Source of the DNA: Lysobacterales bacterium
GTDB taxonomy: Bacteria; Pseudomonadota; Gammaproteobacteria; Xanthomonadales; Ahniellaceae
Reading direction: 5' to 3'
NCBI GenBank assembly: GCA_016182785.1
Contig: JACPFU010000003.1
Coordinates: forward strand, 186,001-250,000
Length of the DNA stretch: 64,000 nucleotides
Shown piece by piece: positions 25,936 through 32,631 of the stretch; positions within the stretch are counted from its first letter, which is position 1; each line of letters begins with the position of its first letter. The notes under the pieces are model-generated. The model worked only from the letters and a program-made list of their open reading frames with translations, was not told where the DNA came from and did not search any database. The position numbers were made by a program, and so were the translations under genes.

Positions 25936-26448
25936 ATGAAGCCCGATGCCGAACTTGCCGATGACGAATTGCATGCGCGTGCCGCCGAGTTCGGTGCGCG
26001 CCTGCTCGAAGCGCGCCTGAAACTCGCCACCGCCGAGTCCTGCACCGGCGGCTGGGTGGCCAAGGTCGTGACCGAAGTGCCGGGCAGTTCCGCCTGGTTC
26101 GACTGCGCCTTCGTCGCCTACAGCTACGACGCCAAGGAAGCCATGCTCGGCGTGCCGCGGCAGACGCTGGAACAGCACGGCGCAGTCAGCAGCGAGACCG
26201 TGGTCGAGATGGTGCGCGGCGCGCTCTCGCGCTCGCGCGCCGACATGGCCGTCGCCATCACCGGCATCGCCGGACCCACCGGTGGCACCCGCGACAAACC
26301 CGTCGGCACCGTTTGGATCGCCTGGGGCTTCGGCCACCACCCACCCGCCGCGCAGGTGTTCCACTTCAACGGCGACCGCGACGCCATCCGCCGCGCCACC
26401 GTCGCTGCGGCATTCGAAGGCCTGGAGCGGTTGCTGGCGGGAAGGTGA
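25936..26448 (+). CDS. pncC: Nicotinamide-nucleotide amidohydrolase (CinA C-terminal family)
   Basis: This 170-residue protein is the stand-alone CinA C-terminal domain, which deamidates NMN to nicotinate mononucleotide in pyridine-nucleotide recycling. Family hallmarks are [14 protein letters not shown] near residue 30 (the Ser-Cys-Thr-Gly-Gly active-site loop), a conserved Tyr in [14 protein letters not shown], and [12 protein letters not shown] near 110. It lacks the N-terminal MoCF-like domain of full CinA. As in E. coli, it lies directly upstream of recA. The ATG at 25936 gives a protein of the usual PncC length. Confidence 0.9.
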
Positions 26449-26751
26449 GGGGTCACGCGTGGGTAGTGAACGCACCGGGCGCCGCAGTGCGGTTCGGAGT
26501 GTGACCGAGCTCTGAGCGTGCCTGCATCCCGCCGCGGCGTGTTCCTTGCCCCTCTGTCTGAATGAGAGCACGCGAAACCAGGCGGGCCGGGCGCACTTTC
26601 CGAAATCTCGCAGGCCCAGGTCGGATCGTCACCGAAGCGGCACACCGGGCTGTGGGATACTTTGCGCATCACTGGGCGGCCGTCTCGCGATCTGAGAATG
26701 CGGGGTGCGAGGCTGCGTCCATCCTTTCCACTCCGACTCGAGGACCTCCCC
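26449..26751 (+). promoter_or_regulatory. recA upstream region with candidate -10
   Basis: This 303-bp gap holds no supportable gene. A possible extended -10 (GGGATACT, core 26656-26661) lies about 90 bp upstream of recA, with no clear -35. An inverted repeat CACA-N6-TGTG (26641-26654) abuts it. I find no E. coli-type LexA box (CTGT-N8-ACAG). The -10 and any operator role for the inverted repeat are tentative. Confidence 0.3.
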
Positions 26752-27789
<1,038 letters not shown>

Positions 27790-27794
27790 GTGGT

Positions 27795-27815
27795 GGCGCT
27801 GCAGCATGCAGCGCC
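27795..27815. repeat. Perfect hairpin just after recA
   Basis: A 9-bp perfect stem with a 3-base loop (GGCGCTGCA-GCA-TGCAGCGCC) starts six bases after the recA stop. It has the shape of a transcription terminator but no T run follows. It could be a weak or Rho-assisted stop, or a scar at the left junction of the restriction-modification insert. Confidence 0.5.
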
Positions 27816-27875
27816 GCGGCGCCTGCCTGCCGGGCAAGGATCGCGTGCCACTGTTTTTCGCCAGGATGCACAACC

Positions 27876-28532
27876 ATGACACTGCCTCGGCTCGACCTCG
27901 AACGGCTGCTCGCGGAGGCAGCGGTCTTTTGCGCAGAGCAGTCCGGCCGTGCCGAGAAGAGCTTGTATGGGGTCACGGATGGCAAGGCGGTCGGCACCTA
28001 CATCGAGCATCGCTTCAAGCTCCATCTGGGAGCGAGATATCAACTCGATTCCGGCAATTCAGCCAAGGGAATCGACTTTCCGAGCCTCGATGTGGACATC
28101 AAGGTCACCAGTGCTCGACAGCCGCAGTCCTCGTGTCCGTTCAATTCGGCGCGGCAGAAGGTATACGGGCTTGGCTACCACTTGGTCGTGTTTGTCTACG
28201 ACAAGTTCGACGATGCGAGGCGGAAGTCCGCGCAGCTGCGCTTGTTGCATGCGATCTTCATCGACAGGTCGCGCACCGCGGACTTCCAGACGACTCGGCG
28301 CCTGCGCGAAATCCTCGACGCCGAAGGCAACCGTGATGACTTGATCGCATTCATGCATGACCGCAACTTGCCCGTGGATGAAGTGGGTGCGATGGAACTG
28401 GCTGAGGAACTGTTGGTGCGTCGCCCGGAGCAGGGCTATCTGACCATCTCGAATGCGTTGCAGTGGCGCCTCCAGTACGGTCGAGTGATCGACGAAGCCG
28501 GGTTGGTCGACGGAATCAGGCGGGTGCGTTGA
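27876..28532 (+). CDS. Predicted type II restriction endonuclease
   Basis: This 218-residue protein precedes a DNA adenine methyltransferase gene by 2 bp, the usual layout of a type II restriction-modification pair. A likely PD-(D/E)XK nuclease core is visible: E44 in GTYIEHRF, D67 in GIDFPSLD and D74-I-K76 in VDIKVTS. A Gln/Ser-rich stretch ([16 protein letters not shown]) and strand [11 protein letters not shown] follow. I cannot name the recognition sequence. The ATG at 27876 was chosen over upstream in-frame starts that lack sequence character. It begins 86 bp after recA. Codon choice here is visibly less GC-biased than in neighbouring genes, which fits horizontal acquisition. Confidence 0.78.
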
Positions 28533-28534
28533 GC

Positions 28535-30139
28535 ATGCGGCGCAAGGAAACATCGAAGTGGGAGTTCGGCGACTTCCAGACGCCCGTGGACCTGGCGTCG
28601 GCAGCGGTGGCGCTGTTGTCCAGACGCGGCCTGGCGCCGGCCACCATCATCGAGCCGAGTTGCGGTGTGGGCGCATTTCTGGTGGCCGCCCTGCGAGCAT
28701 TTCCGAGGGCGGAATGCGTGCTTGCCGCTGACATCAACCCGGAGTATCTGGCCGAGGCGGGCAAGGCTGTCGCGGATATCGGGGAGGGCGGGCGATGCGA
28801 GTTGCTTCACGCCGACTTCTTCCGAGCCGATTGGCGCCGCCTGATCGCGTCGAAGCGGATGCCGCTGCTGGTGCTGGGCAACCCGCCGTGGGTGACCAGC
28901 GCGGAACTGGGTTCGCTGCGCAGCGAGAACCTCCCGGAGAAGTCGAACTTCCAGCAATTGCGGGGCATCGAGGCGATCAGCGGCAAGAGCAACTTCGACA
29001 TCTCCGAGTGGATGTTGATCGAGTACCTGCGTTGGCTGGAGGGCCGCGAGGGTGCCGTTGCCGTCTTGTGCAAGACCTCTGTGGCCAGAAAGGTCCTGGT
29101 GCATGCGTTGCTCGGAAACGCGTCGCTCTCGAGCGCGGACATGCATCTGATCGATGCCAAGCGGCATTTCGGCGCTGCCGTGGACGCTTGTCTTCTGGTC
29201 ATGACGATCGGTCCGCAGAGGACCACGAATGAGTGCAACGTGTTCCAGTCGATCGAGGCCGATCGGCCACTTCGGAGCATCGGCTTGCGTGACGGCTGCC
29301 TGGTTTCCGACGCCAGTGCCTATGATCGCCACCCACACCTTCGCGGCGCGGATGCTGCCTACACCTGGCGCTCCGGCATCAAGCACGACTGCTCCAAGGT
29401 CATGGAACTGGAACCGGACGGACACTCCTTCCGCAATGCCCTGGGCGAATCGGTGTTGCTGGAAGGGCGATATCTCTATCCGATGCTGAAGAGCTCGGAT
29501 GTCGCCAGCGAAAGCGGCATTCGCTATGGCCGGAAGTACATGCTGGTCACACAGTCTGCGGTTGGTGAAGACACATCGTCGATCCGGAACTTGGCGCCGT
29601 TGACGTGGAGCTACCTGGAACGGCATCGGGCCTCGCTCGACAAACGTGCGAGTTCCATCTATCGAAACCGTCCGAGGTATTCCGTGTTTGGCGTCGGGGA
29701 CTATGCGTTCGCGCCCTGGAAACTGGCGATCTCGGGCTTCTACAAATCGCTGACGTTCAAGGTCGTCGCCCCGGTGCGGGGCCGCCCCGTCGTGTTTGAC
29801 GATACGGTCTACTTCCTGCCGTGTTGGACCGCAGAGGAGGCGGATTTCGTCGCGGACTTGCTGAATTCGGAGGTGGCGCAGGCGTTTCTCGGATCGCTGG
29901 TGTTCTGGGACGACAAGCGGCCGATCACGATCGAGGTCCTGAAGAAGCTGAACCTGCGTGCGCTTGCTGCCGAAGTGGGCCGTGAAGTCGAGTATGCGGG
30001 ACATGCGCGACGCCGCCGGGACCTGCAGGCGGAGTCCTCGGGTGGGCAGATGGCGCTTGGAGTCGCAGAAGCCCCTGCTGAGTACGCCACGCCTGGTTCC
30101 AAGGTTTCCCGAAGGCGAACGGTTGTCGCCGCGGAGTAG
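28535..30139 (+). CDS. Type II N6-adenine DNA methyltransferase
   Basis: This 534-residue methyltransferase should protect host DNA from the endonuclease encoded 2 bp upstream. Motif X is FGDFQTP (11-17), motif I (AdoMet binding) is EPSCGVGAF (40-48), and the acidic motif II is in ADINPE (D67). Motif IV is GNPPW (115-119), which indicates N6-adenine methylation. The long C-terminal half probably holds the target-recognition domain; specificity is unknown. Motif order X-I-IV with a C-terminal recognition region is typical of gamma-class enzymes. ATG 28535 is taken because the motif X region starts about ten residues later. Confidence 0.88.
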   Translation: MRRKETSKWEFGDFQTPVDLASAAVALLSRRGLAPATIIEPSCGVGAFLVAALRAFPRAECVLAADINPEYLAEAGKAVADIGEGGRCELLHADFFRADWRRLIASKRMPLLVLGNPPWVTSAELGSLRSENLPEKSNFQQLRGIEAISGKSNFDISEWMLIEYLRWLEGREGAVAVLCKTSVARKVLVHALLGNASLSSADMHLIDAKRHFGAAVDACLLVMTIGPQRTTNECNVFQSIEADRPLRSIGLRDGCLVSDASAYDRHPHLRGADAAYTWRSGIKHDCSKVMELEPDGHSFRNALGESVLLEGRYLYPMLKSSDVASESGIRYGRKYMLVTQSAVGEDTSSIRNLAPLTWSYLERHRASLDKRASSIYRNRPRYSVFGVGDYAFAPWKLAISGFYKSLTFKVVAPVRGRPVVFDDTVYFLPCWTAEEADFVADLLNSEVAQAFLGSLVFWDDKRPITIEVLKKLNLRALAAEVGREVEYAGHARRRRDLQAESSGGQMALGVAEAPAEYATPGSKVSRRRTVVAAE

Positions 30140-30152
30140 GGAGCCATCTCGC

Positions 30153-30614
30153 ATGCGCAAGGACAAGCCCCCGCCGACCCCGCGCGAACGCGCGCTGGCG
30201 CTGTTGGCGCGGCGCGAGCATTCGGCGCGCGAGTTGCAGCGCAAGTTGGTGCGCAAGGGAGTTGCGGGTGACGACGCGAAGGCGGCAGTCGGCGAACTGG
30301 GCGAGCGCGCATGGCAGGACGACGCGCGCTTTGCCGAGTCGCTGGTGCGCCGGCGGGCGTCGGACGGGTACGGGCCTTCGCGCATCCGCGCCGAGCTGGC
30401 GATGCACCGGATCGGGCGCGAGGCGGCGAGTGCGGCGATCGCTGCCGCCGAGCCGGATTGGCTGGGCATCGCGAAGCGGGTGTTCGCGGCGAAGTACCGT
30501 GATGCGGCCGGCGTCGACGCGCGCGAGCGGCAGAAGCGTGCGGCCTGGTTGGCTGCGCGCGGGTTCGACGCGGCAATGGTCCGGGCAGTGACCCGCGCCG
30601 ATCCCGAGGACTGA
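30153..30614 (+). CDS. recX: Regulatory protein RecX
   Basis: This 153-residue RecX controls RecA filament growth. It is made of three-helix repeats with family signatures: ALALLARREHSARELQRKL near residue 14, WQDDARFAESLVRRR near 52 and GYGPSRIRAELAMHRI. It normally follows recA directly. Here it starts 13 bp after the methyltransferase stop and 2.36 kb after recA. The start at 30153 excludes an in-frame upstream stretch that overlaps the methyltransferase gene. It converges on the diguanylate cyclase gene with a 13-bp gap. Confidence 0.92.
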   Translation: MRKDKPPPTPRERALALLARREHSARELQRKLVRKGVAGDDAKAAVGELGERAWQDDARFAESLVRRRASDGYGPSRIRAELAMHRIGREAASAAIAAAEPDWLGIAKRVFAAKYRDAAGVDARERQKRAAWLAARGFDAAMVRAVTRADPED

Positions 30615-30627
30615 GCGACCCGCCGAT

Positions 30628-32631
30628 TCAGGCCAGTTCGATGCGGTTGCGACCGGCGTTCTTGGCGCGATACAGCGCCGCGTCGGCGGTGGCGACCAGA
30701 CGATCGATGCCGCGTCGCTCTGGGCATTCGGCGGCGGCCACGCCGATGCTGACGCTGGCACGGATCGAGATCGCCCCGTACTGGAACGGCGCGCGGTCGA
30801 TCGACGCGCGCACGCACTCGGCGATCTCCGCGGCGCGCCTGGGCTCGGTGTCTTCGAGCAGCGCGATGAACTCCTCGCCGCCCCAGCGTCCGAAATGCGC
30901 TTCCGCCGGCAGCGCCGCGAGCATCCGCTGTGCCGCTTCGCGCAGTACCTCGTCGCCCGCCAGATGGCCGTGCTGATCGTTGATCCGCTTGAAGTGGTCG
31001 ATGTCGATCAACAGCACTGCCAGCGATTGCCGGTGCTCCTGCACCGCGCCCAGCACTTGCGCGAAGCGGGCGACGATCGCGCCGCGGTTGGCGATGCCGG
31101 TGAGTGCGTCGGTGTTGGCGACGCGTTGCAGTTCGATCGAACTCTCGGCGAGTGCGGCGTGCAGCCTGCGCGTTTCCTGGTAGCGGCGGTGCGAGAGCAG
31201 GGCAAATCCGGCGAGTAACGCCAGCCCGACCATCAGTCCGACACCGACGATGCGCTGACGGGTGATGCGCAGCGCCTGGATCTGGTTGTCGCGCGCCAGC
31301 AGCGAGCGCTCGGTCTCGGCGCGTTGCGCCGCCAGCGACCCTTCGAGGATGGCGACGCGGCGGCCGGCGATATCGATCGCGAGGGACTTGTCGAGTTCCT
31401 GGAATGCCTTGCGCGTGGCCATCGCCGCGGCCACCTCGCCGGTGGCCAGTTCGATGTCGGAGAGTTCGTCGAGTGCGGTGCGTTCGAGCACCTTGTCGCC
31501 GAGCTTGCGGGCCCCTTCGACCGTGGCGCGGCCCTCCTTGAGCGCGTTCTGCAGGTCGCCACGGACGCGCGCCACGCGCATGCGGTTGGCATGGATCTGC
31601 ACCTGGTCGCGGATCGCCACCGAGTCGTGCAGCGCGAATGCGCGCCGCGACCAGTCCTCGGCTTCGTCGATGCGCCCTTGCGCCAGGCGCGCGTCGGACA
31701 GGGCGGTGAACGAGTTGACCTTGTTCGGCGGGCTGCCGAGTTTGATCGAGGCGTTGGCCGCTTCCTCGCCGTGGCGCGCGGCTTCCTCGATCTGGCCCAG
31801 TTCCAGCAGTGCCCGCGACAACTCGCCGCGCAGTGCGATGCCTTCGCGCACGTCGCGCGGGCCGAGGTGCTTGAGCGCCTCGCGGATGTTCTGCGCGGCG
31901 AGTTCCTCGTCGTCGAGGTTGCGATGCAGGAATCCAAGCATGCGATAGGTGCGCGCCAGTTCCGAGGTATCCGCGGTCGCACGCGCGAGGTCGAGCGCCT
32001 GGTGGTGGTGCGCGAGCGCGTCGGCGAACTTGCCCATCCGCGCCAGCACCAGGCCGAGCGCGTTCAACGCGCGCGCCTGCTGGCGTCGATCCTGGCCGGC
32101 CAGCGCCAATTCCGCGGATTGGCCGAAGTAGCGGATGGCGGCCTCGAAATGGCCGAGCTTGCGCTCCAGCACGCCGCGGTTGTATGCCCACAACGAGCGC
32201 CAATCCTGCCGGCCGGCAGCGCTCGCGATCGTCTCCATCTCGCCGAGCACTTTGGCTGCACGTTCGGCGTCGCCGCGGTTGGCGTACATCGAGGCGAGAC
32301 GACTACGTGCGGCGATGGCGAGATCGTCGGCGTGCTCGCGGGTGGCGATGGTGGCCGCTTCGCCAAGCAGCGCGTAGGCGCGCTCCGGCTGTTCGAGTTC
32401 GTCGCAGAACTCGCCCATCGCAAGTCGAGTCCAGCCATCGGCGAGGGAGTTCGACTCGGTCTGCCCCCAGCGTTCGACCTCGCTCAGCAGGTCCTCCGCC
32501 GGACGCGTGCGATCGGAACGCAGCGCCGCGATTGCGGGGGGCTCGGTCGTCGCTCGCGTCTCGCTGGCGGCACTGGTGAACCCGGTCCGGGACCACAGCA
32601 GCAGCATGACCAGGGCGAGGCGGCGTGTCAT
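30628..32631 (-). CDS. TPR-domain diguanylate cyclase, membrane bound
   Basis: This 667-residue protein makes the second messenger c-di-GMP. It has a signal sequence or N-terminal helix (MTRRLALVMLLLW) and a long periplasmic array of TPR-like helical repeats (about 40-440). A transmembrane helix (461-480) and a GGDEF domain (about 505-667) follow. The active-site loop is RWGGEEF (GGEEF at 584-588), preceded by LLIDIDHFKRIND. The usual RxxD inhibitory site five residues before GGEEF is absent (PAEA). The periplasmic TPR part suggests sensing of a peptide or protein partner. The start at 32631 puts a signal sequence at the N-terminus; the in-frame extension beyond it overlaps the alaS promoter and start. 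Confidence 0.9.
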   Translation of the reverse strand: MTRRLALVMLLLWSRTGFTSAASETRATTEPPAIAALRSDRTRPAEDLLSEVERWGQTESNSLADGWTRLAMGEFCDELEQPERAYALLGEAATIATREHADDLAIAARSRLASMYANRGDAERAAKVLGEMETIASAAGRQDWRSLWAYNRGVLERKLGHFEAAIRYFGQSAELALAGQDRRQQARALNALGLVLARMGKFADALAHHHQALDLARATADTSELARTYRMLGFLHRNLDDEELAAQNIREALKHLGPRDVREGIALRGELSRALLELGQIEEAARHGEEAANASIKLGSPPNKVNSFTALSDARLAQGRIDEAEDWSRRAFALHDSVAIRDQVQIHANRMRVARVRGDLQNALKEGRATVEGARKLGDKVLERTALDELSDIELATGEVAAAMATRKAFQELDKSLAIDIAGRRVAILEGSLAAQRAETERSLLARDNQIQALRITRQRIVGVGLMVGLALLAGFALLSHRRYQETRRLHAALAESSIELQRVANTDALTGIANRGAIVARFAQVLGAVQEHRQSLAVLLIDIDHFKRINDQHGHLAGDEVLREAAQRMLAALPAEAHFGRWGGEEFIALLEDTEPRRAAEIAECVRASIDRAPFQYGAISIRASVSIGVAAAECPERRGIDRLVATADAALYRAKNAGRNRIELA

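Follow-up and report, generated by a model that had tools for sequence, protein, structure and literature searches.

A type II restriction-modification gene pair between recA and recX in a Lysobacterales genome

The recA-recX site offers a natural experiment, the gap between these two genes usually being shorter than 200 bp. In the window (the whole stretch of 64,000 nucleotides from a Lysobacterales bacterium that was analysed), recA and recX are separated by two further genes. What are these genes, how did they come to this site, and does their position connect restriction with the response to DNA damage? recA occupies positions 26752-27789 of the plus strand (345 aa; Pfam RecA PF00154, 6.4e-144; NCBIfam TIGR02012, 1.6e-171) and recX positions 30153-30614 of the same strand (153 aa; Pfam domains RecX_HTH1, HTH2, and HTH3 all over the cut-off). 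Between them, likewise on the plus strand, a gap of 86 bp (27790-27875) is followed by the gene of a predicted type II restriction endonuclease (R, 27876-28532, 218 aa, PD-(D/E)xK) and the gene of a predicted DNA adenine methyltransferase (M, 28535-30139, 534 aa, with gamma-class motif order and NPPW). All four genes are co-directional, the ORFs of R and M are intact, and R is separated from M by 2 bp and M from recX by 13 bp. The distance from the recA stop to the recX start is 2363 bp, in agreement with the 2.36 kb of the initial annotation. The positions 27795-30152 given there for a restriction-modification (R-M) pair span roughly all of the recA-recX interval and do not mark the gene limits. 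A GGGAG sequence lies immediately 5' of recX, and an Rfam search of positions 26400-30800 matched no RNA family.

R was compared with sequence families as well as with solved structures. It matched the NCBIfam type II restriction endonuclease family NF052465 with 1.7e-100, which exceeds the curated cut-off, and the PADLOC REase_II model with 2.5e-94; a Pfam search gave no match to R. In an alignment of 41 relatives the residues E44, D67, D74, and K76 are invariant, and their spacing in the sequence is that of a putative PD-(D/E)xK site. The AlphaFold2 model of R (pLDDT 89.9, pTM 0.86) retrieved almost only restriction enzymes and MutH as neighbours in a structure search of solved structures. 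Alignment of the model gave Z scores of 9.0 for NlaIV, 8.5 for MvaI, 7.7 for BcnI, 7.7 for HincII, and 7.6 for EcoRV; values near 8 are not decisive by themselves but agree clearly with the sequence families. Foldseek returned weak, not significant E-values for the model (best 0.03), and no restriction enzyme of solved structure matched R in sequence. The predicted fold is EcoRV/HincII/MvaI-like, so that R combines the two marks of a type II R-M endonuclease, a (predicted) restriction-enzyme fold and conserved catalytic residues. No recognition site was proposed for the pair, as R has no relative of solved structure.

M matched the PADLOC MTase_II model with 1.9e-163 across 474 residues, and Pfam gave weak methyltransferase matches only. 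The protein carries the motif I-like sequence EPSCGVGAF as well as the motif IV sequence NPPW, which in this order are consistent with an N6-adenine methyltransferase of the gamma class. In an alignment of 57 sequences, G115, N116, P118, and W119 are invariant, and E40, P41, G44, N116, P118, and W119 are 98-100% conserved. Both the SAM motif (EPSCGVGAF) and the (D/N/S)PP(Y/F/W) motif (in GNPPW) expected of a type II R-M methyltransferase are therefore found in M, and its gene adjoins, at a distance of 2 bp, a gene of the R endonuclease family. The view that an R-M pair sits between recA and recX was borne out by these two intact ORFs with strong R-M model matches and by the identity of their flanks. 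Taken as genes, the two form a standard type II R-M system, and what is unusual is their address. A decaying remnant without function might also look like this, given that some relatives in the family have no methylase partner and in two the frame of R is broken by a stop codon; since in the window both ORFs are full length and the family-invariant residues are kept, we consider this very unlikely.

No ORF for a controller protein was found in the gap between recA and R, in line with the earlier remark that no controller gene was visible. Such an absence is ordinary for systems in which R precedes M, EcoRI and Eco29kI being examples. The codon use of the pair was likewise found to be less GC-biased, as had been noticed: GC3 is 0.76 in R and 0.785 in M, compared with 0.854 in cinA, 0.928 in recA, and 0.864 in recX. 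The GC content of the pair departs only moderately from that of the host and does not call for a recent acquisition.

The spacing of recA and recX was compared in related species. The R gene was absent from 60 relatives, including two congeners and seven family members, some of these genomes being incomplete. Among 52 genomes of the order in which recA and recX share contig and strand, the gap ranged from 4 to 747 bp, with two exceptions: the window genome (2366 bp in this comparison) and one genome whose recA and recX are 533 kb apart. Of the congeners, the better-covered one has a gap of 60 bp. Its DNA is 86% identical to the window in recA up to the stop codon and 74% identical in recX, starting 3 bp before the ATG. 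This comparison agrees with the proposal that the pair was inserted between ancestrally adjacent genes, and an arrangement present throughout the family, which would have meant an old insertion, was not observed. The absence of R from relatives, the short gap of the congener and a GC3 below that of the neighbouring genes support a pair foreign to the lineage and a lineage-specific acquisition.

The 57-bp spacer of the congener contains a GC-rich hairpin (GACGCCCCGG-TGGATTG-CCGGGGCGTTTTC), which is terminator-like but is followed by four T's only and falls under the threshold of the scanner. This spacer gave no convincing alignment to the sequence on either side of the R-M pair and has therefore been replaced or has diverged. 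At the ends of the pair no target duplication, IS element or integrase was found, and flanking repeats were not beyond chance; an insertion via an IS element or with target duplication was rejected on this ground. Taken as a whole, the locus is very probably an ordinary type II R-M system that this lineage acquired horizontally and that took its place between recA and recX.

The R family has a patchy distribution across many phyla. Relatives with 49-67% identity occur in Planctomycetota, Chloroflexota, Cyanobacteria, Verrucomicrobia, Pseudomonadota and others, as well as on nine plasmids and in three viral contigs, and the family is present in six other genomes among 369 of the class. In most of 80 loci from many phyla, the order R then M is kept with tight coupling, and where M was found it mostly begins no farther than about 30 bp from the end of R. 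The tight spacing is therefore a trait of the family and not an adaptation to the recA-recX site. Neither recA nor recX stood beside the R family in any of the 80 loci, and in the class genomes in which the R family, recA and recX could all be placed, no family member lay between the two genes; the idea that the same R-M pair occupies this site elsewhere was thus rejected. At fifteen loci, cyanobacterial R relatives have no recognisable M relative in the surrounding DNA that was compared; they may have a different partner or be solitary nucleases.

Inspection of the tables placed recA and recX together in about 130 of the 142 class genomes having both. The description of recA-recX as a highly conserved pair stood for nearly all relatives, but elsewhere in the class the pair is interrupted by other genes. 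In five class genomes, 1.3-4.4 kb separate recA and recX, and these intervals carry a phosphonate-binding protein with a histidine kinase, a PAS-GGDEF-EAL protein (in two genomes, both of one genus), a DUF547 protein, or a transporter with other genes. In all, seven loci of other gammaproteobacteria were noted with unrelated cargo in the interval: a phosphonate-binding protein with a hybrid histidine kinase, a PAS-GGDEF-EAL gene, a DUF547 gene, transporter, EVE and ZapA-like genes, a CMD-family gene, and a small secreted protein. The neighbourhood of recA and recX tolerates insertions, which occurred independently in several gammaproteobacterial lineages and with unrelated cargo. A general hotspot for R-M systems was rejected, as the other interrupted intervals carry unrelated genes and no R-M system. 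The interval is interrupted now and then, and the window is the sole R-M case seen. A literature search found no paper treating recA, recX, restriction-modification and insertion together.

The initial annotation had also suggested that co-transcription with recA would tie restriction to the DNA damage response. The genome contains one LexA_DNA_bind gene, with an ImuA-like ORF next after it, and the perfect palindrome CTGTAAATGTTTACAG lies just upstream of this lexA. Allowing up to two mismatches, no second occurrence was found in the genome, and allowing up to three, none was found in the window, including upstream of recA. A looser LexA-box pattern occurred in the window in chance numbers only and never near recA. 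For the pair to belong to the SOS regulon through recA, the promoter of the transcript should contain a LexA box; at recA no such box was found, and recA is probably not under this LexA. This removes the basis for a link between restriction and damage, unless recA is induced otherwise, and the suggested tie was not upheld. LexA-based damage control of the pair was rejected because the genome search finds the box at lexA only. The broader reading, that the pair is co-transcribed from a DNA-damage-induced recA promoter and that restriction rises during the damage response, could draw on the shared direction of the genes and the gaps of only 86, 2, and 13 bp between them, on the want of a sigma-70-like promoter inside the region, on a hairpin after recA without an adjacent U tract, and on Vibrio cholerae, in which read-through from SOS genes induces neighbouring genes (PMC5963079). 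Against these points, the single occurrence of the perfect box of the sole lexA away from recA, and the chance numbers of the looser pattern, make it quite unlikely.

Several further elements were observed around lexA and recA. A palindromic element, CGGGGTCAGAGTGAATTTCCGG ... CCGGAAATTCGCTCTGACCCCG (about 74990-75070 of contig C43 of the window genome, G000; locus L144), lies in frame within lexA, in the linker that joins the DNA-binding domain of LexA to its peptidase domain. About 20 half-sites like it occur in the genome, often as inverted pairs. The congener also has a long LexA linker, though its sequence is another one. Upstream of recA, in the leader, the congener carries the palindrome CGCGATTTGAGAAATCGCG (about 2560-2605 of L113), which is not kept at the corresponding site of the window, about 26685-26705.

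Transcription signals were searched around the pair. A scan of positions 26440-30700 for sigma-70-like promoters found none (0.4 expected by chance), the scan covering one promoter type only; promoters of GC-rich genomes are often missed by scans of this kind. The recA-R gap contains a hairpin with a perfect 9-bp stem (GGCGCTGCA-GCA-TGCAGCGCC), without a U tract directly after it but with TTTTT about 38 nt downstream. The fold of the gap was not exceptional against shuffled sequences (z -0.96), and the terminator scan called none in the gap. A strong promoter and a terminator isolating the pair, which would have spoken against co-transcription, were accordingly sought and neither a sigma-70-like promoter nor a clear terminator emerged. 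Upstream of recA, the sequence GGCTGTGGGATA(A/C)T at 26640-26665 is common to the window and the congener and is a candidate -10 region of recA; other members of the family have similar sequences near recA.

From the sequence, read-through from recA and expression of recX from the R-M transcript are both possible. Constitutive recA read-through could express the pair without damage control, and recX would then close a transcript running through recA, R, M and recX. The short gaps between co-directional genes fit this reading, as does the close spacing of recA and recX in nearly all relatives. It is weakened by the strong hairpin after recA, by a larger structure ending near TTTTT, and by the R-M relatives elsewhere, which need promoters of their own, so that the unit probably brought one. 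We regard constitutive read-through as a rather unlikely alternative.

An ordinary acquired R-M system would work at this site as follows. The unit would have replaced or displaced the roughly 57-bp recA-recX spacer. R would cut a short DNA site wherever it is unmethylated, and M would protect the host copies by adenine methylation. Since R precedes M by 2 bp, as it does in the rest of the family, translation of M would probably rely on coupling and/or on a promoter within R, by analogy with EcoRI and Eco29kI. With only 13 bp between M and recX, recX would most likely lie at the 3' end of the R-M transcript and not depend only on recA read-through. We infer the activity and specificity of the system, the structure of its transcript and its effect on recX in this way. 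In the window genome, one transcript may encode both a restriction enzyme and RecX, a regulator of RecA. Slips of restriction enzymes are repaired through RecA. It is conceivable, though unlikely, that recX has been rewired by the exchange of its hairpin spacer for an R-M unit whose transcript includes it, with the RecX level following R-M expression. In that case RecA activity would change as well in cells that cut their own DNA once methylation is lost.

R-M genes have been described as inserting into genomes and as occurring within operons (PMC3031569 and references there). The window pair resembles such mobile units in its insertion but differs in that no target duplication was seen. At the level of structure, the predicted fold of R aligns over most of its length with the EcoRV/HincII/MvaI/MutH branch (VIA Z 7 to 9, 120-150 residues), although identity is only 10-14% and Foldseek was not significant. 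In EcoRI and Eco29kI, R precedes M in one operon without a controller gene, internal and reverse promoters are present, and a promoter within R serves as a further source of methylase expression (PMC3874152). The window pair has in common with them the order of R before M and the lack of a controller. The closest counterparts are the systems combining the NF052465 family (PADLOC PDLC03454) with the methyltransferase PDLC03310, which both window proteins match nearly end to end. These systems, which occur across many phyla and also on plasmids, show the same R-then-M order with gene ends overlapping or nearly touching, and differ from the window pair in their address, none of the 80 standing beside recA or recX.
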